Positions 518 through 60,857 of a stretch of DNA of 64,000 nt are shown here, one piece after another. Both the position numbers and the translations under genes were made by a program. The DNA lies in the NCBI GenBank assembly GCA_010405405.1, contig MU004230.1, positions 3,955,119-4,019,118 of the forward strand, read 5' to 3'. The notes beneath the pieces are model-generated. The model ran no database searches. It was not told the DNA's origin and saw only the letters and a list, made by a program, of their open reading frames with translations. Numbering within the stretch: the stretch's first letter is position 1; every line of letters begins with the position of its first letter. This DNA is from Microthyrium microscopicum. Its lineage: Eukaryota > Ascomycota > Dothideomycetes > Microthyriales > Microthyriaceae.

Positions 518-2379
518 ATGTCTCCTGCGTGTTACGTTTACTACGCCTTCATTGGCGGGGCCGTTGCTGCTGCCGGGTGCTCCAGTGGTTCAACCAGCAT
601 CCCAGCAAAGGCATCAATAAGTGGTTTACCTGTGGTGGATTTGGGATATGGCCTTTGGCAAGGCACGATCAATGTATGCTATAGATCAAACAATCATCCT
701 CAATACTGACAGCGAAAGGAAACTGGTGGTTATTACAATTTTTCCAACGTGAGATACGCGCAACCACCGGTTGGACAACTACGGTAAGTTTCTTTCTAAA
801 CGTAGTATACTTCAATGGCCATTGCTTACCCTCGATCAGCTTTGCTGCCCCCAAACCTCCTCGCACCAATCGAAGTGTTATTCATGACGGACAACACGGC
901 CGAGTGTGCCCTCAGGGTTATCCCGCATGGACAAAGGAGAGGAACATGTTCGTTGATGCCTACCTGGCTGATCCAAAAAACATCAGTAGCTTCACGAAGA
1001 AGCCAGCACCCGGTATAGACCCAACGGCAACACCACCACCACAGGACAATGGCTGGGCAACAGAGGACTGCCTATTTCTCGACGTTATTTCTCCAGTTAA
1101 TGTTTACGATAGCGGGTCTCTCAACAACTCGGGTGGTGCTCCAGTCCATGTCTGGCTGTTTGGTGGTGGATTCTATTCTGGTGACAAAAATGACAACAAC
1201 CCATCAGGATTTGTTGTCGAGTCAATGAAGAATCCCCAAACACAACCTGGTGTCATCTGGGTAGCGATCAACTATCGAATTGGAGCTCTCGGCTGGCTTG
1301 CCGGAAGCAACTTTACGGCAAGCGGTGGTATACCAAACGCAGGTCTTCACGATCAAAGATTGGCTCTGCATTGGATTCAACGAAACATTCACCTCTTCGG
1401 TGGCGATCCCAACAAGATTACTCTCATGGGCGCTTCTGCCGGTGCTTCATCAACATTACATCAAATCACTGCTTATGGTGGCAGCAAAGGTAACGCGCCA
1501 TTTCAGAAAGCTGTTCCTGAATCGCCTGCGTTCGCTCCTTCCCCTTCAGATGCCTTTCAAAACTCTATTTACCAACGATTCTTGGCCTCCGCAAATCTCA
1601 CAAGCTTGGCTGATCTACGGAAACTCTCATCAGAAGACGCGATCAAACTCAATAGTTTAACCATATTCAACGCTCTATATGGTAATGATGGCGGGCTTGG
1701 TCCGGCTGTAGATGGAACATTCGTACCTAATCTATTAACAATCCTTCTCAAGCAAGGCAACTTTTCCAAGAACGTTCAAGGAGTTTTCGCGGGCCACAAT
1801 ACCGACGAAGGTCTTATCTTCACCGATCCATCCATTCAAAACACAACTGCGTTCAACGCATTCATTCGACAAGTACTCCTCGCGGGAACAACAAATCAAA
1901 CTTACGAGTACATCGAGAACACACTGTATCCTGCAGTCTTCAACAACCTTACTGGTCTAGGCTACAACGATACCACGTCAAGATTAGCGACTTTGATTGC
2001 TGATTACACCCTCAATTGTAACGTTCGAGCCGTACTTGAAGCCTTCAATGTCAACAAAACCCATGGATATCTCTTCACCGAAGGTGCAGCACTGCATAGC
2101 GAAGAGACTCCATACATGTTCTACAGTGCATCTCCCACCGTCGATGAATGGAAAATAGGGGTCGTCAATGGAACGGTCGCTCAGACGCTGCAGAACTGGA
2201 TTTTGAACTTTGGTGCTACTGGAAACCCCAATGGTGAAGGGTCTCCATCAATTCCAACCTATGGTCCAGATTTCACGATGGGGGTTCTTTCGCAGAAAGG
2301 TGTTGGCAATCCCGTCAAGGATCCAGCTGGTAAAGAGAGGTGCGAGTTTTGGCAGTCCGGCGCATACGCTAAGCAATAA
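518..2379 (+). CDS. Type-B carboxylesterase / lipase, probably secreted
   Basis: Predicted alpha/beta-hydrolase of the cholinesterase/type-B carboxylesterase family, 588 aa. Three exons, 518-673, 713-783 and 840-2379, join in frame through 39- and 56-base introns. Visible family features are the RYAxPPVGxLR block near the N terminus, EDCLFLD, the oxyanion-hole segment WLFGGGF, and FGGDPNKITL before the nucleophile. The likely triad is Ser275 (GASAG), Glu399 (NTDEG) and His495 (LHSEETPY). The usual GESAG is GASAG here, so the residue before the serine is Ala instead of Glu; the serine itself is intact. The N terminus has a short hydrophobic stretch with an AAGC motif, compatible with a signal peptide. 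Substrate cannot be told. It faces the UstYa-like gene tail to tail, which allows but does not prove a metabolite-cluster role. Confidence 0.9.
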
Positions 2380-6246: not shown

Positions 6247-7131
6247 TTAGCGGATGGCAAGAACAAAGGTTCCAGACGACTGAGAACCCTCGGTTGGATT
6301 TGCATTTGGATCAATTGCAACTTTATCCAACCATCGGACCAGATTCTCACCGCCTTGTTCTTCAATTCGAGTAAAGGGAAACGACAAAGCTTGCCGAAGA
6401 GGATATCGCGGGTTCGTCAATTCGCGCAGGAGCTGAGGGTGATTCCAGAAGCCCACCGGCTGCGTGGCATGCCAGTGGAGTCGAAATGGCTGGCTGTTTT
6501 TCCAGTTGCCTTGGTACCACTTTGGGCGAGGATTCTGAGCAGATGCTGGCGCCGGAGCCGTTTCAACACGTGCCTAAACAGCTACTCAGCGAGCTGTGAC
6601 TTTCTTATCAAGAGAATTAAACACTTACATATCCCCTGAACAATCCGTTGATCTGTTCATATCCTCCATTAGACTCTGTCTTGTAAAACACAAGGTAGAC
6701 GTTATCATGTGTGGCGAAGGCGCGTTTGATTTGACGCTGAGGTGTATGCGATACTACATAAATGCCGTCCGTCATAGATTCAGTCATGAATTCCATGTCT
6801 AGGGGTTCATGGAGGAAATATGTGCTCGATCGCGCGCGTGCAGACAGAGGAGATCCTGCTCCATTGCGGATGCGCTGGTTCGACGGGAAATCCGACCTTC
6901 GACGAGGTAATCCGATATCGTGTCCAGAAACCTTACTATGGTTGGGGGAAACTACAACGGTTAACAAAGCTTAGCTTCAGAGACAGACTCTCGGAGCTTA
7001 CAAGATAGAGTTCTAGCAGAGCTTCTTAGCTCAACGTATTCCTCAGCGGATTGCCCAGAATTTGGCGGATGATTTGCTTGACTCGTCGAACCACTGAAGT
7101 CAAGCGGATCAACCTCCATTTCTGTGTCCAT
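6247..7131 (-). CDS. YTH-like domain protein (type A); 5' end unresolved, possibly decaying
   Basis: Two exons are well supported: one ending at 6629 with its upper border near 6931-6935, and 6573-6247, separated by a phase-0 intron (6574-6628). Together they encode a YTH-like domain. The first exon has STYFLHEP, a GIYVV segment at the position of the first YTH cage tryptophan, QIKRAF, VYLVF and the terminal LFRGY. The second has ARV, KWYQGNW, PFRLHW, PVGFW and a final basic/acidic strand. An upstream frame from an ATG at 7131 could supply the N terminus, but no donor/acceptor pair joins it in frame. Where the sister gene at 11.8 kb has its donor, this copy reads AAGCTTTG, so the donor may be lost. 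It may be a pseudogene or have an unusual 5' structure. RNA binding is inferred from fold similarity only. Confidence 0.55.
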
Positions 7132-8180
7132 CGCTTGAGCAGATTGCGAGGTTACACTCAAGATCTTCGAAGCTCCGGTTGACAGTGTGAGACCCTTTGA
7201 AGGCTTTGGTGGAATCGGATAGATCAAAGGTAATGTTGTGGGCAAAACAATGAAGTGGGAGGTGTAGGAGCTTCAGGCAGCCACAGTCAACCTGAGCAAT
7301 TCCGCGCGGTAGAGCTGGACCTTTTCACCTGGATCAATAGAGCTGCCAATGCTAATTCGATATTACTTGAACAAGTACCTGGGATTGCTTTCGCTCGCAA
7401 CAGATTGCTATACAGACAGCAGCGCTCCATAGGCGTTGTCTTCTCGGGATTATTTGTCGTCTGATAGGCTTTTAAAGGTTCATTGTATCAATTTTAGAAC
7501 CAATGAAATTCATTGGCAATCAAGTTATAGACTAAATTGGCAGTTTTTAAGAATTATATGCTCCTCTCTTAGAGTTGAGATATGCTCATATATTTGTTGA
7601 AAATGGTGAGAACCTCTTCAACGTAACTCATAACATTTTGTGCAGACACAAGAGATATCTTGATTTCCTATAGTATTATCTCCAGCTTTTTTCCTTTAGC
7701 CGTATAAAAAACTTATTGGATCATTGGGGTTTGAGGTCTGTCATGTAGAAGCATTGTGTCTGTAAACCGTCCGGAACGTATTTACAATCTTGATTGAGAG
7801 ATTGTCAATAGCCTCCAAATAGTCTTATAGGCTGGAGCGCTGTAATGGACGGTGGATCTACTAAGTATGAGTCCTTCGCGTTGCATGTCAGGGATTCTGT
7901 CCGAGATACCTTTTTTCCAATGCTATAAGTTCAAAGAATCGAATAAGATGACTTGTAAATGTACTGTTCTAGGAAATGGGATGGCTTGGTAATTCCATAC
8001 GATGAGGTCTACGACAACTAATTTGCTGGAGCTCTAGCTATTAGCTCTATATTTATTGCTTCTGGTAATTTGTCTTTAAAATCTTGTCCAATTCACTTTG
8101 AAATCGCTGGAGTTCTCTCCCGAGCTAAAAAAAGCTCTAGCCCAATTAAGCCTTACTTTCTTGGAGCTAAAAATAAATAA

Positions 8181-8305
8181 CCGAGCATTCTTGCGGCATG
8201 CTATGTCTCGGAGAGTACCACTGGATCGGTACTGCAAAATAGTAAAAAATAATCGAGCGTCAATGTGCTGCCAACGTCTCGAAGGGTATCACTGGATCGA
8301 TACCC
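8181..8305. repeat. Two diverged direct repeats, each with a hairpin
   Basis: Two units spaced 72 bases apart (starting 8181 and 8253) share a CGAGC start, a GTCTCG core and the end ACTGGATC flanked by an inverted repeat. Hairpin 1 pairs 8214-8219 (AGTACC) with 8228-8233 (GGTACT); hairpin 2 pairs 8284-8290 (GGGTATC) with 8299-8305 (GATACCC). Both have the same 8-base loop, ACTGGATC. The stems differ by changes that keep pairing. Confidence 0.6.
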
Positions 8306-8539
8306 AAAAGAAATCTCAAAATCTAACACAGCGAGGACCTTTTTTTTTAATTGCCTATTTTTTCTGGACTCCTTAACTAATCTTTTGTGGGGCATTCTGT
8401 TTTTTGTCTTGCTTGAGGGCATGGTACGTTCTATTCGCAAAGATATATCAAGAATATTACTGCTCGCTCATCCCGTGTTGGAATTGAACGAGGGTCAACA
8501 ATCTAAACAAATGCAGTTGACATTGGTTGTGTCCACAAC

Positions 8540-8640
8540 CCTGAGCAATGGAGGCTTTTGATTGGTAAGATCGCTCATGCACTAGCGCAAGGCTGCCAAG
8601 ATAAGGCTGAAAGTTAACCACACCTCATGCATTGCATCAG
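8540..8640. repeat. Dispersed repeat, copy 1
   Basis: A 26-base block at 8586-8611 is identical to 56509-56534, in the same orientation. Similarity continues weakly on both sides (TTGATTGGT upstream; AACC..CCTCA..TTGC downstream). This is probably an old mobile-element relic; no coding capacity or clear ends are seen. Confidence 0.45.
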
Positions 8641-9201
8641 GAGAGCTTGTTGGATATTAAGAAACTGTACCTGAAAAATTGGCAAAGGCCATACCTACAG
8701 TTTGAAAAGGCTTCTAACAAATGGAACTCTAGAAATGAGCCCATTTGTGTCAGGTTATTCCTGGTCAATGAAGAAAGTTGGAGTGTTGGACCAATACTGT
8801 AAGGAAGGCGGATTTCCAATTTTTTGGCTAACAAGTTTAGTAACCGAGTCTTTTCATATGAAGCGTATAGGCAAACTGTCCTGCACATCTGGCAGAGTAG
8901 TCAATTTAACCTCTCAACACCTTTGAGCCACATACTTAGGTAGTATTTCGGGATTTGAGAAAAGGACCAGATCTCAGTCAGGTGTTTCTACTTGCCTTAG
9001 GTACCTAGGTACTCAAGAGAAGTGTGTGCCCCACGGGCCGTCTAGTTTCTATACCTCTAATGATCTCAATCTTGCCACTTTTGGTTAGCTTTACCTTTTT
9101 CACCCCTCCATGTCATCTCTGCCTCAACAACAACCACCTTTGAAATCTACAAACCCAATCCAGACTTTGTGCGACTTGATCATAGCGCACCGGCAACCTT
9201 C

Positions 9202-11019
9202 ATGGCGGACGGTGAGACTGACGACATATCGTCTCTCCAGTCAGTAACCATCATGACACCAACAAATAGCGAACTTTCCTCTTTGCAATCACCAGAAAGC
9301 CTTGACAACAGCACAGATCACACTACGACAGAGCCTACGTCGGCTGACTTTACTGCGATATCAGCAAACTCATTCAACCACATGCCTCAAGGCAGTACTG
9401 TTATCGATTCTCTTGATACTCAAGAGGATGGTGTCTCTAAAAAGCGTTTGGAGGATTTCGACGTAACAAGAAGATCTATAAACGCGGCATTAGTGAGACT
9501 GGAAGAAGAAGGTCGTCAAGATTCAGCCAAAAATGAGCACAGCCTCACAATAAAATTGAGAGAGATTGACTATGAGTATTGGCCGAAAATACTGCCTCTA
9601 CTCGAAGAGCTCGAGGCGAAACGGGACGAACTGCGGGAAGCGCACCATAAGAAACAACTAGACCTGGAGGCAAAGCAAGCTACAGCCAAGGAAAAGCTTC
9701 TGCTCGCGAAAGCCGACAATAAAAAGAAAAGAAAAAAATGCTTACTATCCCCGAGCAGACGAGCAAAGCGTAGGCAGGAGTTGGAGGAGTTTGAACAACG
9801 AAAAGTTGCTGGAGCCCGTAAGTAACCTTCGCATTTGGAGACCAACGTGGATTAACGTCTATAGACACAACTCACAACCCTATTGGCTCCATTGATCCTT
9901 CTCACCAACGTCATCCCGTCAACTCTACAAATATCGACAATAAGCGCATGCGTCTCGATCAACCTACGACCTCGGAAACATCTCATTCCAATACCGGGCT
10001 TGAACAGCAACTCTTACGATTTGAGCGGACAATCTCTCCGGCGGGCGATATGGTAGGTTTTTTCTTTTCACAAACACCTTCCTCTCCATTTCTCCATGAA
10101 TGTGATCATATTTCACGCATCAAAAGGCCTCCATCCGTCCTGATCGACATACTTCAGTAATCTGACTGAAACTTATCTTCCAAGTTTGATCATTTCGATT
10201 CGACCAATCTTGTCATCATATTCAATTCGTCCCCATCGCAGTTGATGATTCGGATCGCATCCGATGGTCGTTCTAGCGTATCATCCGACTTTGTCCCAGC
10301 GGACAGATCATATATTGACGCGCGCTGGTTTTGACATCTTGCTAGGTAGTATGCTGACAGACTCCAGATCTCAGAACAGCCAAACACATTGTCTTCCTTG
10401 CGTAAGTCGTATTCCTTGATCCTGATTGGCATTTCGTGGACTAATACTCAATAAAAGCCCGGGCATCAACTATTTACTTTCTGGTCAAGCCACAACCAGG
10501 AGTGACAATGGCGGAAATGATGATGGAGGACTTTCTGATTGTACCAGAAGGGCTCCATACGAAGATAGACAATCTGTGGTGGTGTTACAAGAAAGGCATT
10601 TGTATCATATTTCTTGAGCAAGAGCGGGGTCGTAAGAAATTTCATGGATGCGTAAGTATTGCCACAGATCGTAGGAATGCTTATCTAGTTGAGAGCTGAC
10701 GGGATCTTAGGCAAGAGTTACTCTGGTTCCAGAGGTTACGAGCTTCTTACTGCCATTCCCAAGCTGGTCTCGCAAAGCCAATCTTGAGAATAGCAAACCA
10801 TTTGCTGTGAAATGGGAGAGTACGCAGTGGGCGCTCTTCCGCGACGTAGGCCAAGTGCAGCGGAAACTTCCAGACAATTTGTACGATACCGACTTGAAAT
10901 CGTTCCCGTCTTACTATCAGCTGCCAGATTCTGAGATCGGAGAAGAATTGGTGATGGGAATAGAAGAGGCAGCTGCACGCGCTATCAACAAAGCCTCTGC
11001 CGGGCGTCGTGCCTGGTAG
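9202..11019 (+). CDS. Coiled-coil protein with YTH-like (type B) C-terminal domain
   Basis: Proposed 477-aa protein from exons 9202-9817, 9865-10052, 10185-10277, 10368-10401, 10458-10651 and 10711-11019. The first two and the last two exons are solid; the two short middle ones were chosen because they keep frame (donor GTATCA at 10278 is weak). The N-terminal third is Ser/Thr-rich. It is followed by a long charged helix with heptad-like Leu/Glu/Lys content and a basic tract (KKKRKK, RRAKRR) that suits a nuclear localisation signal. The C terminus is a YTH-like unit: FLVKPQPGVTM, IIFLEQ, KKFHGC, intron, ARV, LPFPSW, PFAVKW and a final acidic helix. The same VK-x-PPGVTM block occurs in the type-B unit at 58.8 kb. 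The start is the first ATG of the frame. I infer a nuclear RNA-binding protein. Confidence 0.65.
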
Positions 11020-11761
11020 CCAGTCGCGAGATTCAACGACTGGAGTGTTCAACAGAAAAACGGAATATTGAACCATCGAGGTGGGCAAACTCAGACATGT
11101 TAGCGATGCCTGGGATCCATTTCAACGGTACCGATAAGTTGATTGAAATCAAATAAGCATGCTACTCCGTCAAAAGACTGGACGACTGGGTTATGGAAGG
11201 TGCAAATGGCGACAGTACAGTAAAACAATGTCTCCGGGGTGGGAGAATCAAATTGCTGCTACAGACAGAATGAGTGCGAAGCGACAGGGCAAGATAATGA
11301 ACTGAACCCCGGCCAACTTAGCCAAACTTCACTTTGTCTGTCAACCCAGTTCCTGAATTTGATACATATATAGCACTCAATATAGCGCGAGAAAGTTCTT
11401 TAACAAAGTACCATCGACGCTTTTGATGGAGATGCGTCAATGAGCAATGCCATCGTTTTGAACTGGGTGCTAATTTGAAGCAATTGTCAAGTCACGAGTC
11501 GATTAACTGCACAGAAGTGATTCTTCTTATTTAATTGGCTGAAAATGAGGCCCATGCAGACATTTGTTGCATTCTATTGGCTCAAAACGATCAGGCTGCA
11601 GCCTCACCTCATTGCTCCGCTGTTACTTTCACACCTTGCTTCGCCTTTAACACTCCATCCTTCCCCACTCTCTATCTAGTGCTCCTTATCCTTGCTTTTC
11701 TGGCTGATTCAATATCCATCCATTCGCAGCTCACAAAATCGACCTCTCGAACATTTCATCA
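11020..11761. other. Intergenic region / promoter of the next YTH-like gene
   Basis: About 740 bases between two plus-strand genes. No gene is supported. The last 150 bases before the ATG at 11762 are pyrimidine-rich and lack a clear TATA box. Confidence 0.4.
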
Positions 11762-12696
11762 ATGTCTTTCTGGTATCCCGCCCCACCACACAACTTGTCC
11801 AGCGCACATGAAGCGCAAGATGCACCAAAGATTCATGAAACTCGGGCTGAAGACGAAGAAATGCGTGATGCTCTCACTGTCGAGGCTTGTAAGTTTTCAC
11901 CTGTCGTCTCCCATCGAATGCAATGGGGGACAGCGTGATTGATGGGAGAATACCCATTAATTACCCTTCTGCAGCGCACGATCTAGGAGCTCCTTATTTA
12001 CATGCGAGCGAGCAAAACATCGACACGAGGCTAACCAAAATGCGGGTAGTGCCAGAAAAAGAGATAATCGTTCCTATCATCTCTGATGATTCTGTTCCCA
12101 CTCCGACGATGTCTAGATTCTCTGGTGAATCTGTTGCTTATTTCATGCACCGACCCAGTCAGAAAAGCTACATAGCCGAATCAATCAAAGATTCAACCTA
12201 TTTGCTGTCAGAGAGACATCAGAAGAAATTGGCCCAGGCTTTTCTAGAGCATGATCGCGTTTTCATCATCTTCTTCGACATCGCTCCAGCGAAGGAGAAA
12301 AATGGCACGTTCGAGGGACTGGTGAGTTTCACGTCTTGATGCGACTTAGAAATGAAGAAAGTTAATCAGTTCCAGGCACAAGTCAAATCCGCACCAATCC
12401 GTTCCTCTGTTGTTCCTTATCCCCCTTGGCATCGCCATCAGCATAGAAAGAATTACCCATTTCGCCTGGAATGGCTAGCTACCGAACCTGTAGGATTTTG
12501 GGAAAATCCACCTCTACTCCGCGCGTTACAAGACTCCTTCTCGACAGCAAAACATTTCAAAGAATGGCCTTGGTTCCATTCAATTGATATGGGCTTGGGT
12601 CATGCGGTAGCGGAAGGACTATGTGCGAAGGCAGCTGCTGCAACTGATAACCGAGAAACTTCAACGCCATCAGAAGCCGCTCTAATTGAGGGATGA
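11762..12696 (+). CDS. YTH-like domain protein (type A), apparently intact
   Basis: 264-aa protein from exons 11762-11888, 11975-12321 and 12376-12696. It starts MSFWYPAP, matching the MPFWHHAP start of the locus at 60.9 kb. Residues about 95-245 resemble the YTH fold: VAYFMHRP (first strand), SIKDSTYLL with Tyr where canonical YTH has its first cage Trp, KKLAQAF, VFIIFF, GTFEGL, then the conserved phase-0 intron, AQV, PPWH (a candidate second cage Trp), PFRLEW, PVGFW, and SIDMGLGHAV where canonical domains have the RDGQE segment. The domain is almost the whole protein apart from an acidic N-terminal tail. Canonical YTH domains bind N6-methyladenosine in RNA; whether this diverged pocket does is unknown. 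This is the cleanest copy in the window. Confidence 0.75.
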
Positions 12697-13027: not shown

Positions 13028-16000
13028 TTACTTTCCACCCAACAATCCACCAACAAGCGGCAGACTACCCATTCCACCTCCCTTCTTCTTCTCCTTCTTG
13101 CCACCACCAAGCATATCTGTCACACTGCCTAGACCTAGTCCACCAAGGAGTTTGTCAATACCCAAGCCTCCAAGTAGGCCGTTCACTAGACCACCAAGAC
13201 CAAGAGCATTGAGGAGCTTGCCAACCAGTCCGAGAACACCAGATAGCAACAGACCGACGGCGGCGATGATCTGGAAGAGTGGCTCGGTGAGAAGAGCCCA
13301 CAATGGGTTGAGCTTCTTCTTTGCGTGTGGCATATCTTGAAGCTTCTTCTTGGCGTTGTCGATGGTAGTGACGACTGATGTTGTGAGCTCCTTGAGTAGA
13401 TCTGCAAGGCGATACTCTTCTGGTGTAGCTTCTCTTGTTGCAGCACGGCCCTTGGCTTGTTGTGCGATGCGACCATCGGGATCAAGACCACGGAGAGAGC
13501 CATTACACTCTTGGAGGATACGACTACCTTCCTCGATGAGGGGTTTGACATTGTTGACGAGCTCTTCTTCATCAAGCTCGTCCTTTGGTGTACGATCAGC
13601 TTGTTCGATGTACTAGAGACCTGTTAGTTGATTGTAAAGTGAATACAAAGTGATTAATCGTACCTCAGTGATCTGTTTCATGACTGGCTGCACACGCTCA
13701 AGTGTTTGTTGGCAGATATTGCCCATCTTGTCAGCGAGCTCAGCATCTTCCCGCTTGTGCTTCTCCTCTTCGCTCTCATCCTCATCCACTTCCTCTTCAA
13801 CGATGTTCTCGAGAAGAGTAGCTTCACCGACGCGGTTACCGTCATTGTCAACAACGTAACCGTTGTCGTCAATCTCAAGGCCGATGCAGCGACCAAGATC
13901 ACCAGCAGTGAGGCGGCCGATGACATCTCCGTTCTCATCACGGATTTCACCCTCCTTGTTGACGTGGCGGCCAGACATGGGGTTGATCTTGCGCTCCTTC
14001 TCTTCTGGCTCCCAACGTTCAGCCTTGCCAATGGAGTTGCCATTCTTGTCAGTGATGTCACCGTCTTCGTCGACCTTGTGACCAACAAGCTTCTTGACAT
14101 CACCTTCAATGACGCGGCCGATGATGGTACCGTCGGCGGTTTGGACTGTGCCGTCTTTGGCAACAGTGTTACTGTCGAAGCCTGCAAATGGACCTTCTGG
14201 AGATGTATCTTGTCCAGAGACCAATTCAGCCTTGCCGATAACATTTCCGGAGTTGTCCCAGATTTGTCCTTGGCCATCGACCTTTCGGCCAATCATGTTC
14301 TTGAGTTCGCCCTCAGATACACGACCAACGACGGCGCCAGAGCTGTCAACGACATTTCCAGCCTTGTTGACGGTGCAGCCTGCAAGAGCAGAGAGGTCGA
14401 CTTCTGGAGTATCTTCCTCCTCGTATGGCTCAGCATGGCCCTTGACGTTGCCGTACTTGTCGATGATGTCTCCATCTTCGTCAACGGCATGGCCTACAAG
14501 GCGCTTGGCATTACCTTCGGTGAGAACACCGACGACATTGCCATCTTCATCCTCGACCTTGCCATCCTTGACAACACGGAGACCTTCGTATCCAGCGAAT
14601 GGACCTTCAGCCTTGGCGACGCGCTCGTTCTCTGGGATGAGTTCGCAACGACCGACTTGCTTTCCAGTGTCGTTGAAAATGAGGCCGTTCTCGTCACAGC
14701 GGCGGCCAGCGAGGTCTTTGGCATTGCCTTCGACGAGGCGACCGATTGGTACACCTTCATCTCCGATGACGTTGCCTTGTTTGTTGAGGATCTTGCCAGC
14801 GAGGATTGAGAGATCAGCTTTCTCTTCCTCAGCTTCTGGAACTTCTTCCTCCTCGTAGCGCTCAGCGTGACCGACAACTGATCCGCGCTTGTCGATGATA
14901 TCTCCGTCTTCATCAACGGCTCGGCCAACGAGTTTCTTGGCATCACCCTCTGTGACCACACCAACAACGTTGCCGTTCTCATCTTCGACATATCCGTCCT
15001 TGTTGACGATGAGACCCTCGAGGCCAGCGAAAGCGCCCTCCTCATCAGGGTCTTCAGCCGCAACAGTCTTGGCGCGACCAATGACATGGCCCTTGTTATC
15101 CCAGAATTGGCCTTGGTCGTCGGCTTGGGTGCCGAGCTTGGATAGCTTCTTGGCATCGCCTTCGACGAGTTCACCCACAATGACACCGTCGCTGTTGATA
15201 AGCTTGCCTGCCTTGTTGACCTTGAGACCTTCGAGAATGGATAGAGGTGGAAGATCATCACCCTCCTCGCCTTCCTCAGCACCCTCTTCCTTGGCTTCTT
15301 CGCCTTCGACACCTTCAGCGCCTTCTTCAGCGCCCTCCTCTTCAGGGTTCTCTCCGGCTTGAGGAAGAGTCTTGACGCGGCCGATAACATTGCCTTTCTT
15401 GTCGAGGACTTCACCCTTCTCATTACATTTTTGGCCAGCACACTTCTCAATGTCACCATCAACAAGTTCGCCAATGACGTCGCCGTCCTCGTTGAGAATC
15501 TGGCCCTTCTTGTTGACCTTGAGGCCTTCAAGAACGTCGAGACCAGGTGTATATTGGTTGGCCTCTTCTTCGACATCGGCAAGCTCCTTCATAGCTTCGT
15601 CGGCGGCTTCACCAGGGATGACCTTGACGCGACCAATGACGTTGCCGCTCTTGTCGAGGACTTCGCCCTTCTCGTTGACCTTCTTGCCAGCGCACTCAGC
15701 AATGTCGCCGTCAACAAGTTCACCAAGTTCTTCACCGTCAGAGTTAAGAATCTTGCCCTTCTTGTTGACCTTGAGGCCGTCCAAGATGCGCAGGTCAGGT
15801 AGACCACGAGCGAGAATTTCTTGGGCGCCTTCAGCGAGTTCGACCTTGCCAATGACGTTGCCTTCTTCATCGAGGACTTCTCCTTGGTCGTTGATGGTCA
15901 TGCCCTTGACTTGGTCGATGTCACCTTCAGCAAGGTTGCCAATGACATTTCCTTCTTGGTCAAGAACATCTCCATCGCTGTTGATTTCGTGGCCCTCGAG

Positions 16001-17392
16001 GGCTTCAATGCCTGGGAGTTCGGCATCGATGGCTTCGCCTTGCTCGTCGACGGCATCTTCGGCACCGTCAACGGCTTCGCCAGCTTCGTCTTGGGCTCCT
16101 TCGGCACCATCTTCAAGGTCTTCGCCGGCGCCGTCGACTTCATCGCCAACATCTTCGCCAGCGTCTTCGGCGTCTTCTTCGAAGCCGTCAATGTATTGGC
16201 CGGCATCGGGGTGTACTTGAGCGCGACCAATGACGTTGCCGTCGTCATCGAGGAACTCGCCCTTCTCGTTGAGGGTACGGCCCATGAGTTCATGTGGGTC
16301 ACCTTCAGTCAATTGACCAATAGTGTCGCCATCGTCGTTGAGGATATTGCCAGTAGCGTCAACAGTGAGACCTTTGAGGACTTCAAGACCTGGGACATTT
16401 GATGCGGCGCCCTCAGCCTTGCTCTTGGCCTCGTCGAGGAGCTCTTTGGCCTTCTCGGGAAGAAGTTCGCAACGACCGACAAGATCGCCGTCATCGTCTA
16501 GGATTTCGCCGTCATCGCCAATAGTGTATCCAGCAAGATCTTCAGCGTCACCTTCGACTAAGTGGCCAATGGCATTGCCTTCACTGTCGTGAATGAGACC
16601 TTCGTCATCGACCTCGAGGCCAGTGAGAAGTTCGACGCCAGGTACATCAGGGAGTTCTTGGCCAGTAGCATCTTCAGCAGTGTCCTTGACACCTTCAGCA
16701 GCGTCGCCAGCAGTTTCGCCAGCATCGTCGACTGTGCCCGTAGCCTCTTCTTTGACGCCTTCGAGGTCACCTTTGCCGAGTTTGCCAGCAGCACCAGCTC
16801 CACGGCTCGCAAGGTTCTTTGCGCCGCCAGCGAGACTTGAGCCGGTCTTCTTCACGCCTTCGGTAGCGTCTTCTGTGTCGTCCGCGTCCTCGGAGATGGC
16901 AGTGTCGCCAGCCTTTTCGGTCGCATCGTCGTCTTCTTCATCCTCCTCGGGCTCTTCGTCTTCTCCTTCTGTGGCACCGCCAGTAGCCTCCTCTACATCT
17001 TCTTCTGGTTCGGGGGCCTTTTCTTCTAGATCCTTGGGAGCATTCGATACCTTGGATCCGACATTTGATGGTGCGTCCTCGGCTTGCTCCTTAGTGTCCT
17101 CGACATCGTCTTCGACGTCAGGTTTTTGGGTTTTGGGTGCTTGTGGTGTGGATGGTGTTTTTGATGATTGGCCTCTTGAGCCAGATGCTGCTTGCTGTGG
17201 CTTGCGAGCGAGCTTTGTGGGAGTTTTGGGGTTGGCCTTGCCAGCTGCGGGTGAGGGAGCCATGTTTGGATTTTTGCGTTTGCGGGAAGGGGGAGTAGGG
17301 GAAGCGTCTCTTTCAGCGCGAGATGATGAGGGAGTTGGAGAGATTCGAGATGGTGTAGGTGGGAATGAGTAGAACTGATACCGACTTGACAT
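13028..17392 (-). CDS. Giant DUF3659 / LEA-like repeat protein
   Basis: 1437-aa acidic repeat protein from exons 17392-13664 and 13612-13028, joined across a 51-base intron. The N-terminal 270 residues are Ser/Pro/Ala/Glu-rich with LEA-like amphipathic segments (repeated GDAAEGVKDTAEDA-type phrases). Then come about 12 repeats of roughly 60 residues of the DUF3659 type, each with two half-units of the pattern V-N-x-x-G-x-V-x-D-x-x-G-N-x-x-G-x-x, the first ending in an EGD-like linker. After the intron an alpha-helical linker leads to a hydrophobic Gly/Leu-rich tail (LLGGLGL...) near the C terminus, which could associate with membranes. Related fungal proteins are annotated as LEA domain proteins, and desiccation or stress roles are assumed but unproven. 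Strong codon bias makes long antisense frames, which are not genes. Confidence 0.92.
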
Positions 17393-19688
17393 ATAATGTT
17401 GGTCACAGTCGAGTTTTAGCGAACTGGAGATCCAATTGGCATTTACAGAGGTTTATGGTGTTGTGTTTTACAGAGAGTTGAGGTGTAAAAAGGGATAATG
17501 GATTGAAGAGATGTTAGTGGTAGAAGATATCTCCTAGATATATCTGGGCATCATGGTACATGAATCTAGAGAAATACTACGATTACATCATAACCCACAA
17601 GGCTGGCAAGGCCCGTCAGTGGCCAACATACATGTTCTTGCAAAGTTGCTAGGCTGGAAAAGTTGCGTCGACTGTGAGTCTGTGACACTGGATAAAGTTG
17701 GAAGAAGGCAGGATGTCACAGACCTGAGTGGAACCCCAGCACAACCATGATACATCAGCCTTGCGAGACAAGTTGTTGAGAAATTCTAGGCCAGAGCACG
17801 CAGAGTACTTGAAAAGCAGCCAGGGGTTTGATAGAGAATGATGTCGTCCTTTGGCCAGGTGGAAACAATGAGAGCGTTGGAACGCCTCTCTGGCAGTCTT
17901 CTGCGAGAAATCCTGGCCATAATCCTGGTATGCATCCTGGCATTGCGGCATTGTCTAGCATCTTGATCCTTGGAAAAACACCAACACCAAAAAGGGTCAA
18001 AGTGCTGATCCTATACGCAGCACTGCAGCTTGACGTCAGGAATGTTGCACTGGAACCAATAATTAACCGGAAAGTAAACACCAAGTTGCTCGTTTCGATT
18101 GAATCGACGGGGATAATTGAGTAAACTGGGGTAAACTCGACGTCTCAGACAAAGCCCATTCGTATGCGCCGCTTTGGGGCTGCTCTTGAAGGACCGAATC
18201 TGGTACCCCTGGTCAGGATGGGGCAAACTGGAACATACTCCGTAGTGACCTTGCTGCATGGAGAAGTGCAATCAGTGCAGGCACATCTGGTGTTCGATAA
18301 GTCGATATAAAATAGTTGGCATTCTCGCGAACATGTCGTTGACTAGTAGCTTTACCCCATATTTGGGAATGGACTGCAAGTACCTATCAGTCAACTGGCA
18401 GCAGCTCTACAAGCCAACGGTCGCGGCCGCTTGTCATGCCCACGTTGACGGAGGACTAGTGTCAGTGGCCACGAGGAAACGTCGGAAACTTGGCAATTCA
18501 TTTGTCGGGAAAGTAGCAGAAAGTACCGACTGACGCAAAGCTAAGGGATATTTAGCAGTGGTCACTGGTGGGAGGGGCTGGTGGTGGACTGGTGGACTGG
18601 TGGAGGAGAAATGGTTGGAGCTCTGCCAGCTTCGAGCTCGTGAGCTCAATCTTGGTGGAGATCAGCGGTGACATCATCAAGATCAGCCAAAAGTGTTGTG
18701 CCTCGCGAACGTGCTGATCGACGATGCCACTCTGCCCATCCAGCATCTGGACATCGCCAAGTACTTCTCCTCTTTCTCATTTAAAAAATCTCATGCGATT
18801 TCCTGCTGCTTAATTTCTGGTCTTGTCATTCATTGGTTTTCAGGAACGGTAGATTCACTGCTGCTTGGTGGAAAATCCACACTAGTTTTCAGCCTTGCAC
18901 GCTGTCATTGGTCAATTGAGAACAAGATAGCCTCAGCTGCTAGAAATTAGAACCATTTTCAGGAACCGAAGTACTAGTATCCGCTTCGGGGATTGAGGAG
19001 GGCATATTTGGTCCCTCAAATTATATTTAGACTCTGCGTGAGCATGTGGTTACAGGCTTTCAAAAGCTGCTGACAGCCTCCGTAAACTTCCTATATACCT
19101 TACCTACATGCTCCCGCGGGTAGTACACTCTTTCATTTCTATTCTAAGTTTCCATCTTAGATATTTCCCTTTTAACTAAATCTTTGGCCTTGATCCTTGG
19201 CTTGCACACCCTGATGAAGATCGAGAAATTGGACAGTTCCACTATGATTTTGTTGGCGAGGTCCACTGTTCCCCAGATTGGTACACCATGAAAGTACAGC
19301 TTTATCTGCCCAAAGAATCCAAGTCAAGAAAATCATAATCTTCTTTTCTTTCAAGATCATTCAAGAAGTTCTCTTCACGCAGGCATTCTTTATAGCGTAT
19401 TTCTAGTTGTGGAATCAGAGATAAATGGCAGTCATCACCGCGTACCTTGATCTCGAAGAGCCCGACGAATACGGCAAATACACATGCCTTTGGGGAATTG
19501 CGGTTGCCCAGCTGTGAATACAATAGAACATGAGGCTATCAGGCTCCATTTACCCACCCATTGGTTTGGACTATCGTTTATCGACCCAAACCTCCCCAGA
19601 CCCCGCTTCAGCTATGTAGATATATCTCTCTCTTCCGTCCTGTGCGTCCATTTCTCTGTCCTCTTTCTTCTTTGGCGCCATCTCCAAC
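17393..19688. other. Gene-free region, promoter of the LEA-like gene on its left
   Basis: About 2.3 kb between divergent genes. No coding frame, splice pattern or RNA gene is convincing. A short Gly/Thr-codon-like tandem (GGACTGGT repeated) lies near 18587-18605. It is probably regulatory and UTR sequence for the two flanking genes. Confidence 0.5.
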
Positions 19689-26664: not shown

Positions 26665-28136
26665 CTAATCTGTTCTCCGCTTCTTCGAATCCTTGGTGTC
26701 CTCTTCACTGCTTGGGCTGATTCTCTTTCGTGCCAAGGCCTTCTCATTTCCTTTCTTCACCTGGATGTTGCATCCCTGTAGCTTAAGTGCCCGTGTAAGA
26801 GCACTGCTTGGCCGCATACCTGGGAAATCCTTGGCGGTGTAGACCTGGAAGGGTTCGGACAAGACCTCAGTTAGGATCGGGGATGATCCACCAACACGCA
26901 AGTTCTTGTGGTCGATCCGCATAAGCACAAACCGTAGGCGATACTTGCCATGTGTTCGGCAAGACAGATCGGGGAAGCAGAAGAAGCAACCTTCGACATC
27001 ATGTTCATCTTTAGCAACGCTGGGAGATGCCACCAATTGGCCCATGAGTCGCCGCGTAGTCCGTCTATCGGGTTGGATGAGAGCAGTTTCTTCGCCAGTT
27101 CCATCGGCGTTCCAAAGGGTGCAGTGAACTACGTTCAAGGAGAATCCCAGCTCGTCTAGGTTCTCAATCTCGCCAGTGTCCTGGTGGCTGACGACTAGCT
27201 GGATGATTGGGGGTGGGTCTATCACCCGGCGGTCTCGCTCGCCAAATCCACATGCTCTTGCGGCAATCGGTTGTTGTCTAACTTTGAGCTCGTAGTTCCA
27301 TGGACTAGAATAAGGTTAGCATTTAGATGCAGAGCTTGGCGGGACATGTATTACTTTTCAGGTTCTGCCACCGGCACAGGCGCCGGAATTGGAACTGGCA
27401 TCAAGCTCTGTGGATGTGCATGGGGATGTGCGTGCGGATGATCTGCATATTGAGGTGGTGCATATGAATGAGGAGGTGGAGGAGGCGGTGGTGCAGATAT
27501 AGCCGTTTGAGGGATGGCAGGGCGATAGTGGGAAGGCGGTTGACTATATGATGGAGGATAACTTGGAGCTGGATGATAAGTGGGTGCTGGTGATGGAATT
27601 GAGTGGTATGAAGGACGTGTTTGCTCTACTGGTGACATGTAGGACTGCTCAGGATGATATGCTCTTGGCTCGTCAGCATATTTGTGAGTAGTGGGCCTGG
27701 AAGTGTGTGGTGGAGGCGGCGGTGGCGGTCTTGAATCTATGCTAGATCGTGGTGGAGACCTTTGTGGTGGTGAATATGGTTTAACTTCTGATCGGGGAGG
27801 GGTGTATGAATGTGGTGATAGAAGCTTTTCTAATGGAGCTGCCTGGCTAGAATATGAACGAGGCTGAGATCTTGGAGCCTGTGCTGGAGGTGGAGGTGGA
27901 GGGTTAGCATGAATTGAGGGTAGTTGTTGAGTTGGTGACTGTTGATATTCTGATCTCGGGCTATGCTGTGGCGGTATTGCTAATGGTGGAAGCTGTATAG
28001 GCTGAGGAAGCCTTCGATTTGGATAGTCCATGAATGATGGTCCTGCAAAACTTGGGGCGTTTTGAGTTTCCGCCATGGTTGGAGAGCCAGATGTATATGA
28101 ATGAGCGGACGAAGCCACTGGGTGAGGACGGGACAT
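26665..28136 (-). CDS. velC: Velvet-domain regulator, VelC type
   Basis: 473-aa nuclear regulator of the velvet family (VeA, VelB, VosA, VelC), which controls development and secondary metabolism through an NF-kappaB-like DNA-binding fold. Exons 28136-27355 and 27304-26665 join across a 50-base intron. The first 260 residues are Pro-rich and disordered, with PPPPPP runs and an alternating His-Pro/His-Ala tract. The velvet domain begins at the splice junction: NPWNYELKVRQQP, ARACGFGERDRRVIDPPP, VVHCTLWN, RRLMGQLVASP, GCFFCFPDLSCR, KYRLRF and AKDFPGMRPS. GFGERDRRVIDPPP and the single uninterrupted domain at the C terminus favour VelC over VelB (which has an insertion) or VeA (N-terminal domain). 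The C-terminal KKRRTD tail is a likely NLS. Confidence 0.9.
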
Positions 28137-42945: not shown

Positions 42946-45900
42946 TTATAGAGGCTTGCCGCCAATAAACTCGCTCCAGCGACGAACTTCAGATGGGATG
43001 CTGCCTTCTTGTCGGGGCAGCTTTTGGTTCATACATGTCGCAAAGAGGACAGCAGTCTAGACACAATTGTTAGTATAAATTACAGTGAAGGTTGAGGTGG
43101 AGGATATCATACCTTTGGTTCCAAAAAGAGTGGCACACCGAAATCAACAGCATTTCGACGCATAACATAATCTTCATCAACGAGCGACTTTGCGCGGCTG
43201 TGCGCAAGGTTGAAGACACCACGAATATCGTTCTTTGCAAACACTTCGCGCAGAGCTTTCTTGTCTTCCACAGGGAAGTCAATGACTTCGACTGACGCAC
43301 CCTCTACCGCGCTCTCCAAGGCAGCCTTGGTTGTCTCATTGGCAGCAAACAATTTGTACTTGAGTGGCGCTAGTTGTCGGACAATTTCAGAAAGCTCGTC
43401 GGTGAACTCACCACCGAAGAGCAGACCCTCACCAGGTTCGGGCATGCGGAAATTCATAGTGCTTTGCATGGCGGCCCAGTAAGCTTCGATCTTGTCGCGA
43501 CCGAAGCAGGCCATTTCTCCGGTTGAGCTCATTTCGACGCCGAGATATGGATCGGCACCGGCGAGACGGGTCCAGGAGAATTGAGGGACCTTGATGGCGA
43601 GGTAGTCGCGCTTGACGGCCATGGGGTCGACAGGCTCAGGGACCTCTTTGCCGACTAGAGCTTTGGTTGCTACGTCGATGAAGTTGGTGCCGAGAACTTT
43701 GGAGGAGAATGGAAAGGAACGAGACGCGCGGAGATTACATTCGATAACTTTCAGAGCGGGTTCACCACCGTTGGGATTCTCGGCTTTAATGATTTGCATG
43801 TTGAAGGGACCGGTAATTTTCCAAGCCTTAGCAACACGTTCGGCAATGTCCTTGATGCGGTCCATGGTGGTTTGGTCGAGGTCAACGGGAGGTAGGATGA
43901 GTGTGGCATCACCAGAGTGGACACCAGCGTTCTCGACATGCTCCGATACAGCGTGAATGAGAAGCTGCCCATTGCTGCCGACAGCGTCAACATCGATTTC
44001 CTTGGCTCCTTCAATGTACTGTGAGATGACAACTGGATGGTCTGGTGATACGTTGGCAGCGGCGGTCAGTTTCTCAGCGAGCTCAGCTTGGCTCTTGATG
44101 ACTGTCATAGCAGCACCCGATAGAACGTAACTTGGGCGGACAAGAACAGGGTAACCAACAGAGTCAGCAAACTCTTCAGCCTCCTTGAGGGAGGTAAGTT
44201 CCTTCCAGGCTGGCTGATCGACTCCAATGTCATCAAGAATAGAAGAGAACTTGTGACGATCTTCGGCTTTGTCGATGTCATGTGGATCCGTTCCGAGTAC
44301 CTTGGCCTTTCCGGTTTCTTGAAGCTTGAGGGCGATATTTTGGGGAAGCTGTCCTCCAACGGAAACAACGACACCGGAGGCAGATTCGAGATCATAGATA
44401 TCCATGACACGCTCGTAGCTGAGCTCTTCAAAGTAGAGTCGGTCGGCAACATCAAAATCGGTGGAATAAGTCTCTGGGTTGTAGTTGATCATGACGGTTT
44501 TCTTTCCAAGCTTGTTGAGCGACAAGGTAGCGTTCACAGCACACCAATCGAACTCGACAGAGCTTCCAATACGGTAAACACCGCTTCCAAGAACAAGCAC
44601 ACCATGGTCGTCAAATGTGACATCGTGGGTGCTGGCGTTATAGGTAGTGTAAAGGTAGTTGGTATCGGCAGGGAACTCAGCAGCAAGGGTATCGATCTTC
44701 TTGACCCAGGGCCTGATGCCAAAGCTCAGTCTCCTGGCTCGAACCTCATCCTCAGTGCTGTTTACTGCAGCGGCAATTTGCTTATCCGAGAAACCCATCT
44801 TCTTGGCGCTGGTAATGAGCTCTTTCTTGAGCCCAAAGAGGCTGCCAATTTCTTGCATTTCTTTGGTGCAGTCGACAATGTTCTTGAGCTTGTAGAGGAA
44901 CCACTTGTCGATTTTGGTTAGATCGTGGAGCTTGTCAACTGAGTAGCCTTCATGGAACATGGCCTGGCCAACAGCAAGCCATCGACGATCGGTCGGGTTC
45001 TTGAGGGTGTCGTCGAGGTCGTCGAATTGATCTCCTTGGAAACCGTTCCACTTGGGATCAACCATACGGGCAGCTTTCTGGAAGGATTCTTCAAAGGTAC
45101 GTCCAATAGCCATAACTTCACCGACCGACTTCATGGAACTTCCAATATCACGCTTGACGTTTTGAAACTTGGCAAGATCCCATCGGGGCATCTTTGTGAC
45201 AATATAATCCAGAGAAGGCTCGAAGTTTGCAGTGGTAGTCTTGGTGACAGCATTAGGTAATTCGGGAAGGGTATGACCTAGACCAATCTTTGCGGCGGTA
45301 TAAGCGAGGGGATATCCGGTGGCTTTCGAAGCGAGAGCAGAGGATCGAGATAGACGAGCGTTGACCTCGATAACCCGATAGTCGAGACCATCAGGCTGTA
45401 GGGCGTACTGAACGTTGCATTCGCCCACAACTCCTAAGTGACGAACAATCTTGATAGCAGCGGATCGGAGCATATGATATTCCTCGTCAGAGAATGTTTG
45501 ACTGGGAGATACGACGATACTGTCACCAGTGTGGACTCCGAGGGGATCAAAATTCTCCATGTTGCAGACGGTAATGCAGTTGTCGGAGGCATCACGGACG
45601 ACTTCATACTCGGCTTCCTTCCAACCCTTGAGCGATTTCTCGACCAAGATCTGAGGCGACAGTGTCAAAGATTTGGAAGCTAGATTCTGAAGTTCCTCGG
45701 GGTTGTTGGCGAAGCCGGATCCAAGACCTCCAAGTGCGAATGCAGCGCGAACAATGATGGGATATCCAATCTGATCAGCAGCTGCGAGAGCATCATCCAA
45801 GGTCGTCACTGCAATAGACTCTGCAACAGGAATATTGATATCTTTCAAGGCATTGGCGAACAGCTCGCGATCTTCGGAAAGCTCCAATGTTCGGACACTA

Positions 45901-46698
45901 GTTCCAAGGACTCGTACACCGTATTTCTCGAAAATACCCATATGCTGCATCTTGACACCCAGATTGAGAGCCGTTTGGCCACCAAAGCTGAGGAAAATGC
46001 CATCTGGCTTCTCTCGTTGGATAACATATTCGACGTATTCTGGAGTGACTGGGAGATAGTAGATCTCATCGGCAAGGACGTGGGAGGTTTGGATAGTCGC
46101 GATATTAGGATTGATCAAAACGGAGGCAACGCCGGCTTCTTTGAGGGCCTTGAGAGCTTGCGAGCCTATTTTGAATACGAGTTAGCGACTGTAGTCTGCA
46201 ATAGCAAGTAGAACTCTTGGCAGGTACATGCTCCTGCCGCTCTCGCGAAGGCGGTGAGTCACAACCAAAGTACAGAAGGACATGTAAACAACAATAAAAA
46301 GACGTGGAAATGCAGGAAATTGGGTAATTGATCGTACCAGAGTAATCAAATTCACCAGCTTGGCCAATTGCCAGACCACCAGAGCCGATAACTAGCACTT
46401 TCTTGACATCGATCAAGTCGCGTGCTCCAGCGATAGCCCCGCTGTTCAGATAAGCCTGAGCATTGGGTGCTTCCTGGGTAGCGTTTTGCTTGGAAGCAGA
46501 GGCAGAGAGAAGGCGGATTTGGCGATTTGAAGCCTGGATTGGCTGTTTGGCAGCAATTGAGGCTCTAAGGGGAGCGCGATTGGCTGTTGTGAAGCTCCGA
46601 ATGGAGCTCTGCTGCCATCGAGTGCACTGCGGGGAGGAGCATGACGAGAGACGGGTGCGGGAGAGAAGATGTCGAGGCAGGCGCATAGAGGATGCCAT
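42946..46698 (-). CDS. cpa2: Arginine-specific carbamoyl-phosphate synthase, large subunit, mitochondrial
   Basis: 1174-aa large (synthetase) subunit of the arginine-pathway CPSase (yeast CPA2, Neurospora arg-3 complex). It makes carbamoyl phosphate from bicarbonate, ATP and ammonia supplied by the small glutaminase subunit. Exons are 46698-46338, 46165-43113 and 43056-42946. The first 60-80 residues are Arg/Ser/Ala-rich with no acidic run, typical of a mitochondrial presequence. Both ATP-grasp halves are present: VLVIGSGGLAIGQAGEFDYS at the first, then GGQTALNLG, AFALGGLGSG and NARLSRSSALASKATGYPLA; in the second half LVLGSGVYRIGSSVEFDW, VSVGGQLPQN, RPSYVLSGAAM and ECNLRASRSFPFSSK. The C-terminal MGS-like domain ends with VRRWSEFIGGKPL. 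It is a stand-alone subunit without glutaminase or ATCase fusion, which separates it from the pyrimidine enzyme. Confidence 0.97.
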
Positions 46699-58302: not shown

Positions 58303-60857
58303 CTAATGATTGTCAATCAAGTAGTCGATGTTCTTAGAATCCCAGCGTTTGCTAGCATTGAAGGTCTGGTTGTGTTTTTCGCGTAGTATGTTGTGGATAC
58401 GTTCGTGGGCTGATGTGCTGATGGAGTTCTGGATAGGTTGAGCAGCAGAGCGAGTGACAGTGACGGCCGAACTTTTGTCGTTTTTGATGGCTTCTCCAGT
58501 AGATGGATGCATGGCCTCGCTCAAGTTCTTTCTCACCATCGGATCTAGAATCTGATAGAATGGCGGAAATAGAATCCAGTCCTCATCGAAAAGACGCTGC
58601 TCTTTGAGTAGAATCTCTCCAACTTCAGTGAAGAATACAGATCGCTTACTCATCCACTGTACAACAAATGCCTTACTTTCTTTGGCCTCTGTCTTGTCAT
58701 GCCAGGCGGGAAGCGGAATTGGAAACTGAGACCCGAGCTGGACTCGCTTGACTTCGGCCTAATTTTTGATCAGCTCTCGTTTCAAATTTGGAAGTTTTCT
58801 TGAACCCTTGCAGCGAATACTCACATATCCATGAAACATCCTATACTCCCGATTCTCTTCATGAAAGATCAAGAAAACTCGTTGCTTTGACCGATACAGC
58901 TGGCATAGCAAGTTCTCGGCCGACTTCGTCACAACCAGATAGTTCTCGCTCATCATGTCCTCCATTGTCACTCCAGGTGGAATCTTGACCAAGCAAACGT
59001 GGCTGAGAATTGCTGTGTTCTTCTCGCTATGCTTTTGTAACATAACTTCGGGCTTACTTGTAGAGTTCTGTGGTGTTGGCTGAATTTGAACCTAGCATTC
59101 GTTAGTGGGATACAGAAGACCAATGTAATGTTAACTCTGAAAGATTCTTCTGTCTCCTCGTTGAGCAATCCCATTCAGCGCTATGAGGATCATGCAGTGG
59201 CATATGGGCCATCGAGTGCGGAGAGGTTAATTCGAAAATCATGATGTGGGGAAAAGCGCGATTTCAGAGACATCTTGCAAGTTGTGATCGCATGCTATGG
59301 GTTCCATCGCATTCGGTGGGAGCCATAGCATGCGATGCAGCCACCATGTTGTCCGGTGTTATCGAGTGTACGTCAAAAAGGTAATTCCGCAAAGAGGCAA
59401 CTTACCATAGAAGATGTTTTCCGAGCAGCCATAGGTTGATCAGCTTGAACAGACCCCTCGCCATTGTCGATAGAATCCGGATGCTGAAGATTTTGCAAAA
59501 GGTCTGATGACTGATTCGTGACATCTGATGCCGCCGCTTTTGTGTATAGTGCTTCTGCAATCGAATAGCCCAAGTTGGTGTCAATTTTATGTAGCCATGG
59601 CCATTTCTTGAAAGCACATGAGGGCGAGAAAGAGTTTTCTATAGCACGCAGCAGCTTAGGATCTTCCCAAAAGCCAACCGGTTTTGTAGCTGCCCAATTC
59701 ACTGGAAACGGCTCATATCTTGTACGATGTAGTGGATGCCAGGTAGGATAAGGGTTCACGTCAGACTGCGGCATTGGTGGTCTCTCGACTCGTGCCTTGT
59801 GAATGATTAGCCGCCGTATCCATTTATCAACAGCTCTGAAAATGAGCACTTACTAGTCCCTTAAAACTACCATTGTTCTCTCCCTTAGGCGCAACCGTGT
59901 AGAAAATGATGAAAACGTGATCATGGTCTGTGAAGGCTTGATTCACTTGTTTCTGTGTCTTTTCTGATAGAATGTAGATCGATTCGGCCATTGATAGTGC
60001 TATGACACCACTTTGAGCGGGCCGGTGGATAAAGTAAGCAACTGACTGGCCATTGGATTTGAATGCAGTCGGAGTGCAATCGAAATGATCATTATTAGTC
60101 AGGGCGATTGAGAGATAATGTGGCACTGTTGGGCTTATAGTTAGTTCGGCCTTTCTCCGTGGTCCGCCAATCCAGATTATTGGCAGAAGAATTGTAGAAC
60201 TTACAGGCCTCTACATCAGTGTCTTCTCGTAGTCTGATTGGAAGATCTTCATTTTCATCCAGATCTTCAGCGCTCTTTTGCTTCTTTCGAGATTGCAAGC
60301 CTCTCGTCCAGCCTTCCATTTTCGCTTGAGCAACTTGAAGTCTTACCATTCGAAGTTGTGCAGGTGTTAGTTCTTCTTCAAGCGTGTCCATATTGGAAGC
60401 TTTCCGTTTTCCGGAAGACATGGATGGCGTCGAGATTGAGGGTGCGGGTTTGAGTTTTGTAACGTCAACGTTCTTTTGGGCCAATTCTTGAGTATATTCA
60501 GGTACCAGAAGATGCAGGTAGAATTCGAGTTCAGCGTCATGAGCGTTCTGGGTCAGGCCCCTAGAGAGATACTGCTCTACTTCAGCAGATGGTGCTTCTA
60601 TAGTGTTAGTGTTATGTAAGAGATGAATGAATTGGTAATTTTGAGAATAGAATCTGATAGCACTATTTATCATTAGAGTACCACAGAAACTATCCTACGA
60701 TAAGATGTTTCCCAGTGCTTTGATGTTGCCAAATAACGTGGGTGGATGAGAGTCCTGCGATAAAAGATTTACCTTGAAGTAGTGCTTTGCTAGACCAGAA
60801 CGCTTCGTGCTCAGCGTCCGAAGCATCGCTCGATGGAGCGTGGTGCCAGAAAGGCAT
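58303..60857 (-). CDS. Protein with two YTH-like domains (A then B), 620 aa
   Basis: Six exons on the minus strand, 60857-60773, 60597-60205, 60125-59854, 59795-59406, 59091-58825 and 58758-58303, keep one frame. The start MPFWHHAP matches the MSFWYPAP start at 11.8 kb. A charged helical region with a basic RKKQK tract follows. The type-A unit has VAYFIHRP, SIYILSEKTQ, FIIFYTVAP, SFKGL, intron, ARV, YPTWHP, PFPVNW, PVGFWEDP. The type-B unit has CLVKIPPGVTMEDMM, VFLIFHEE, MFHGY, intron, AEV, IPLPAWHD, AFVVQW. The 314-base intron joining A to B (59092-59405) has a GTAAGT donor and CACTAAC..CTAG acceptor but is long; the halves could instead be two genes, the A part ending at 59373. It also contains a 14-bp perfect inverted repeat. 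RNA binding is inferred from fold resemblance. Confidence 0.62.
59287..59336. repeat. Perfect 14-bp inverted repeat inside a predicted intron
   Basis: Arms 59287-59300 (ATCGCATGCTATGG) and 59323-59336 are exact reverse complements around a 22-base spacer, within the long intron of the dual YTH-like gene. In the transcript this would fold into a stable hairpin. Confidence 0.8.

Follow-up and report, generated by a model that had tools for sequence, protein, structure and literature searches.

A clustered family of divergent YTH-fold genes with altered m6A-pocket residues in Microthyrium microscopicum

The window studied here, a stretch of 64,000 nucleotides (nt) from the fungus Microthyrium microscopicum (positions 3,955,119–4,019,118 of contig C1, MU004230.1, in a genome of 36.9 Mb and 20 contigs), contains four genes, A to D, which together encode five units related to the YTH domain. 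The four loci and five YTH-like units had been proposed from a sequence-only reading of this DNA, and every one of them was recovered in the gene models and as a spliced unit. The genes and the two halves of each unit are given below in amino acids (aa) and nucleotide positions, where the cage site is that of the first tryptophan of the N6-methyladenosine (m6A) cage.

6247–7131, minus strand: gene A, 259 aa, three exons (7131–7002, 6951–6629, 6573–6247), one YTH-like unit
6829–6629 and 6573–6313, minus strand: halves of unit A, 55-nt phase-0 intron; Tyr at the cage site, second Trp present
9202–11019, plus strand: gene B, first exon (9202–9817), two domain exons and stop placed; middle-exon structure provisional
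10460–10651 and 10711–10983, plus strand: halves of unit B, 59-nt phase-0 intron; Leu at the cage site, second Trp present
11762–12696, plus strand: gene C, 264 aa, three exons (11762–11888, 11975–12321, 12376–12696)
12124–12321 and 12376–12639, plus strand: halves of unit C, 54-nt phase-0 intron; Tyr at the cage site, second Trp present
58303–60857, minus strand: gene D, two domains, six exons (60857–60773, 60597–60205, 60125–59854, 59795–59406, 59091–58825, 58758–58303), the sixth taken from the open reading frame and the first five from splice modelling
59529–60051, minus strand: unit D1 of gene D, halves 60051–59854 and 59795–59529, 58-nt phase-0 intron; sister of C
58492–59007, minus strand: unit D2 of gene D, halves 59007–58825 and 58758–58492, 66-nt phase-0 intron; sister of B

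The first exon of gene B is long, charged and, as judged by eye, helical-looking. Genes C and D have in common a phase-1 intron after V-E-A and a start of the form MxFWxxAP.

Identity of the units as YTH domains

The homology to YTH claimed earlier was confirmed by Pfam, family-profile and Foldseek matches. Against Pfam YTH (PF04146, curated cut-off 22.1 bits), full-length spliced C (264 aa) scored 45.7 bits (E = 7e-12), and the spliced units of the window scored 47.6 (C), 46.9 (A), 45.6 (D1), 36.2 (D2) and 18.4 bits (B, below the cut-off), with B grouping with D2 at 96% support in a tree. Across the larger family described below, eight of eleven units exceed the cut-off (A, C, D1, D2, E, F, G and H1), with F the most YTH-like at 76.1 bits, and H2 and I give no score. 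Hidden Markov models (HMMs) of the two halves, built without H2 and I, still found I with both the N-terminal (7.5e-4) and the C-terminal half (5.7e-9), and found H2 with the N-terminal half only (9.9e-4; C-terminal half 4.5, not significant).

Furthermore, when a ten-unit profile (without I) was compared with the sequences of the PDB, 39 of the 40 listed were YTH chains, led by the YTH domains of CPSF30 (3.3e-14 and 2e-13), YTHDC2 (1.3e-11), YTHDC1 (5.2e-11) and Mmi1 (5.2e-8) and followed by the YTHDF group; the sole other match was an unrelated ‘Antigen A’ chain (E = 0.015). All 50 rows listed by Foldseek for a model of C were likewise YTH domains, with template modelling (TM) scores of 0.40–0.57 by query and 0.46–0.73 by target and a root mean square deviation of 4–10 Å, the model itself having a predicted local distance difference test score (pLDDT) of 66.9 and a predicted TM score of 0.65. 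The model of D2, of low confidence (pLDDT 55.8), also gave YTH in 50 of the 50 rows listed. The best matches in sequence and fold are the CPSF30 YTH domains (Toxoplasma CPSF4 and Arabidopsis CPSF30) together with YTHDC1 and YTHDC2.

Extent, clustering and descent of the family

We searched the genome with Pfam YTH and with the single members C, H, F, G, I and B. The local, diverged expansion proposed from the window stood, and the earlier count of four loci and five units proved too low: the family comprises at least nine genes and eleven units, all of them on C1 within 667 kb. The further genes found by genome search are:

C1, 3.357 and 3.368 Mb: genes E and F
C1, 3.842 Mb: gene G
C1, 4.021–4.024 Mb (locus C1:4020700–4024604, L016): gene I and the two-domain gene H

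These searches found no family member outside C1, and the chance that nine independently placed loci would all fall on this contig, which makes up 12.3% of the genome, is arithmetically about 5e-8. When HMMs of both halves were run over 2,641 reading frames from the window and the four loci, only the eleven units were recovered, the next best match having an E-value of 0.18. Two weak matches to the H query, at C3:1261820 (E = 0.06) and C1:1174732 (E = 0.23), overlap its linker, which is rich in arginine–serine (RS) dipeptides, and were dropped, without a test, as probably compositional.

In the open-licence PMC literature we recognised no report of this expanded, divergent fungal YTH family. 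One survey retained 868 YTH proteins across 695 species of fungi, some 1.25 per species, after proteins shorter than 300 aa had been dropped (PMC10826363), an exclusion under which A, C and E would be missed.

A phase-0 intron at the boundary between F-x-G-x and A-x-V had been noted earlier, and it is indeed present in five of five window units, with GT-AG ends and a length of 54–66 nt. Beyond the window the same site is occupied as well, so that all eleven units carry it (50–66 nt). The common descent that had been claimed for the units is upheld by this intron site, shared by 11 of 11, and by their grouping in a tree, which was unrooted and made from a short alignment: it joins C and D1 with 100% support, B and D2 with 96% and H2 and I with 90%, and sets the eleven units apart from six reference YTHs at 99%. 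On these sequence comparisons the units are YTH domains by descent.

It was also observed that units of one class (C, D1, H1, and also A) adjoin, or are fused to, units of another: B lies beside C, D1 is joined to D2, and H1 to H2 with I next door. From sequence, this pairing suggests an old two-domain arrangement that may later have split or fused.

Divergence within the family is high, some units having as little as 12–13% identity to C. Nonsynonymous (dN) and synonymous (dS) values obtained by NG86 were 0.34 and 1.44 for C–D1, 0.62 and 1.61 for B–D2, 0.68 and 1.23 for D1–H1, 0.80 and 2.26 for E–G, 0.92 and 3.99 for F–E, and 1.26 and 1.78 for H2–I; since dS is near or at saturation, dN/dS is rough. 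Three of the nine NG86 pairs were saturated (A–H1, A–C and C–H1), and YN00 covered one pair only. Differences at first, second and third codon positions were 0.30, 0.23 and 0.54 in the closest pair, C–D1, the third being highest, and 0.69, 0.58 and 0.61 in the most distant, H2–I, where it is not. Because of the NG86 values, C–D1 looks to be under constraint, the other pairs being too distant to say much. As modelled, genes A, C, E, F, G, H and I have no stop within their exons, and none lies in exons 1–5 of D.

A short palindromic element around CCATCGCATTCRRTGG occurs at 59286–59337 of the window (the D1–D2 intron), at 11911 (intron 1 of C) and at position 4040 of L016, beyond H. It was considered as a mark of the family and rejected as a dispersed repeat, there being 52 exact copies on many contigs of the genome against none of a reversed control; the copy at 11911 is mismatched.

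Pocket residues and the m6A machinery of the genome

Sites of the methyl-recognition pocket were mapped onto YTHDC1 through one alignment, whose reference rows are two canonical YTH genes of this genome and four PDB chains; the roles of the residues are taken as described in PMC6112328. The sequence-only reading had placed Tyr or another residue at the first cage Trp and a Trp at the second, and this holds for the window: the first site is Tyr in A, C and D1 and Leu in B and D2, and the second is Trp in all five. In the whole family the first site (W377) is Trp in E, F and G, Tyr in A, C, D1 and H1, and Leu in B, D2, H2 and I, so that the first cage Trp is retained in three of eleven units and in none of the five of the window. 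The second (W428) is Trp in 11 of 11 units and in five of the six reference rows, YTHDC2 being gapped here.

At the N367 site, where Asn or Asp contacts the m6A base, neither residue occurs in any of the eleven units, compared with six of six reference rows; the site holds Thr in B, D2 and I, Gln in H2, and Phe, Tyr, Val, Met or Ala in the others. Likewise, the Arg of the RDG motif (R475, D476) is found in none of the ten alignable units, compared with five of the five reference rows that reach the site, and the D-G is retained only in F (HDGDE). Unit F keeps both cage Trps and the D-G and has Ala at the N367 site, and aligning it directly with YTHDC1 by phmmer gave the same picture. Of the aromatic pocket that the earlier reading had proposed to check, the second Trp stands in all units, and the first is lost in eight of eleven. 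Like CPSF30, YTHDC1 and YTHDC2, the family retains the second cage Trp and the Trp of the core strand; unlike them, it is without the N367-type residue (11 of 11), the RDG Arg (10 of 10 alignable) and, in 8 of 11 units, the first Trp. Judged from these residues, canonical m6A reading by the family is improbable. The earlier suggestion that it could mark a new class of RNA readers is no more than a possibility, and m6A reading is disfavoured.

The two canonical genes are of the YTH1 type and lie elsewhere in the genome:

C10:931501: canonical YTH1 gene, RRM_YTH1 and YTH domains; D, W, W and RDG residues present
C4:2086174: canonical YTH1 gene, RRM_YTH1 and YTH domains; D, W, W and RDG residues present

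Although they share the genome and the Pfam domain with the family, these YTH1/PHO92 genes differ from it in the D/W/W/RDG residues, in falling on the other side of the 99% split in the unrooted tree, and in the site of their intron, which follows the A-F-N/A block rather than F-x-G-x as in all eleven family units. They also carry RRM_YTH1; in the family, scans found only YTH in full-length C and no RRM_YTH1 in exons 2–3 of A or the scanned frames of B; D to I were scanned as domain units only.

As for writers, one MT-A70 search of the genome gave a single locus, and its sole PDB match was ‘Methyltransferase-like protein 2’ (7cv6), which we take to be a METTL4. The same search, whose sensitivity had no separate control, gave no METTL3/METTL14-type match. 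A PF05971 locus is present too, this being presumably the Pfam family of METTL16. According to the survey, IME4 and KAR4 may have been lost from the Pezizomycotina, with MTA1/METTL4 as the single writer there (PMC10826363), a pattern that the one METTL4-like MT-A70 locus fits.

The remainder of the window holds the following features.

13616–17452, minus strand: large frame that contains 12 stretches of DUF3659 (831 bits) and ends in a weak match to DUF6987
13031–13612, next frame: the DUF6987 match proper (276 bits)
26668–27315, minus strand: regulator of the velvet family, PF11754 (215 bits), some 14 kb away from gene C
43110–46181, minus strand: carbamoyl-phosphate synthase large chain, an ordinary neighbour gene
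49678–52278, minus strand: ubiquitin hydrolase, an ordinary neighbour gene
685–2376, plus strand: carboxylesterase, an ordinary neighbour gene
62538–63977, minus strand: M28 peptidase, an ordinary neighbour gene

What the divergent YTH domains may do

We favour, with a rough probability of 0.55, the reading that these genes form a clustered YTH-fold family of regulators, probably nuclear, which would bind RNA without canonical recognition of m6A, in the manner of Mmi1 of Schizosaccharomyces pombe. Canonical reading would have been dropped with the change of the first cage position to Tyr or Leu in eight of eleven units and the disappearance of the m6A-contacting Asn/Asp and the RDG Arg; the invariant second Trp would have stayed, and several members have N-terminal regions that are RS-rich, basic or charged. 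With parts of the methyl-recognition pocket lost, the family probably binds something else. The domains have an isoelectric point (pI) of 8.9–9.2 in eight of eleven units, 7.9 in G and 6.2 in B and D2, and RS or SR dipeptides number 10 in E, 9 in G and 11 in H, in RS-rich N-terminal or linker regions. A role as RNA-binding regulators, likely nuclear, is suggested because the basic pI of most units, the conserved pocket Trp and the RS-rich regions of E, G and H fit it.

The nearest working analogue would be Mmi1, which uses a different surface to bind an RNA motif that is not methylated, helped by a disordered extension, and feeds the transcripts to decay. Mmi1 carries Ala in place of the N367-type residue, shows no m6A-specific binding (PMC6112328) and uses a low-complexity extension (PMC6005420); the family resembles it in the YTH fold, the loss of the N367-type contact, the retained second Trp and a low-complexity extension before the domain. 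It differs in that an RNA motif is known for Mmi1, to which, moreover, the profile match is weaker (5e-8). The copies of the family would have diverged toward different RNA or protein targets.

Several points weigh against this reading. As regards the fold, C alone gave a weak YTH match in the PDB (E = 0.0027), with formyl-CoA transferases in the remaining 11 of its 12 rows (E ≥ 0.83), and the models of C and D2, of modest pLDDT (66.9 and 55.8), both contain intron residues. As regards the pocket, the sites were mapped at about 20% identity and depend on a single alignment, in which YTHDC2 is gapped at W428 and whose reference rows include neither Mmi1 nor the YTHDF group. F carries a two-residue insertion near the N367 site, and B, D2, I and H2 have Thr or Gln there. 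A local shift of the alignment is possible, given a Phe or Tyr immediately ahead of the W377 site in B and D2 and an RHDG a few residues beyond the RDG site in I. The invariance of Trp at W428 could also point to a pocket still in use, for a methylated base or for another. As regards the wider evidence, B and D2 are slightly acidic and the net charge of the other units is just +1 to +4; the RS-rich stretches belong to genes beyond the window (E, G and H), the other counts being 3 in A, 2 in C, 3 in F and 0 in I (seven genes counted, without B and D); the dN/dS values are rough; and the likeness to Mmi1 covers the fold, the N367 site, the second Trp and the extension, its RNA-contact residues lying outside the comparison.

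A more tentative possibility, on the whole doubtful, is that the modified pocket, with its invariant Trp and a Tyr or Leu, evolved for another ligand, such as some other modified base or a specific motif without methylation, with the copies going to separate targets and canonical m6A recognition given up. If this were so, each two-domain protein would recognise a pair of marks or motifs together.

It is unlikely that the units are true m6A readers with a rebuilt cage, in which Tyr or Trp and the invariant Trp hold the methyl group and another residue replaces the Asn/Asp contact. The second Trp in 11 of 11 units and a Trp or Tyr at the first site in seven of eleven would suit such a cage, and besides the PF05971 locus there is the METTL4-like MT-A70 writer, whose orthologues in other filamentous ascomycetes are m6A writers according to PMC10826363 and PMC11361730. 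However, the N367-type residue is missing throughout and the RDG Arg from all ten alignable units, Leu occupies the first site in four of eleven, two canonical YTH1 genes with W, D and RDG are already present, and the one MT-A70 search gave its single locus and no METTL3/METTL14-type match.

We consider it similarly improbable that the domains are pseudo-readers, YTH folds that bind proteins (each other or canonical YTH1) instead of RNA and act as adaptors or antagonists. The degraded RNA-contact residues, the two-domain genes D and H, the slight acidity of B and D2, and the long, charged N-terminal stretches of B, F, G and I, helical or coiled-coil-looking by eye, are in keeping with protein binding, yet the basic pI of eight units, the RS-rich E, G and H and the conserved pocket Trp suit nucleic-acid binding better. 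That the copies are decaying duplicates without function, as their very high divergence might hint, is very improbable, given modelled exons without stops, an intron retained in 11 of 11 units and, in C–D1 though not in H2–I, third codon positions that differ most.

This single fungus has eleven YTH genes, nine divergent and two canonical, alongside the one METTL4-like MT-A70 writer found. On the favoured reading of RNA-binding regulators without canonical m6A recognition, the family would represent a natural series of YTH domains at successive stages of m6A-pocket loss, and may offer a route to asking what the YTH fold binds once m6A reading is relaxed.

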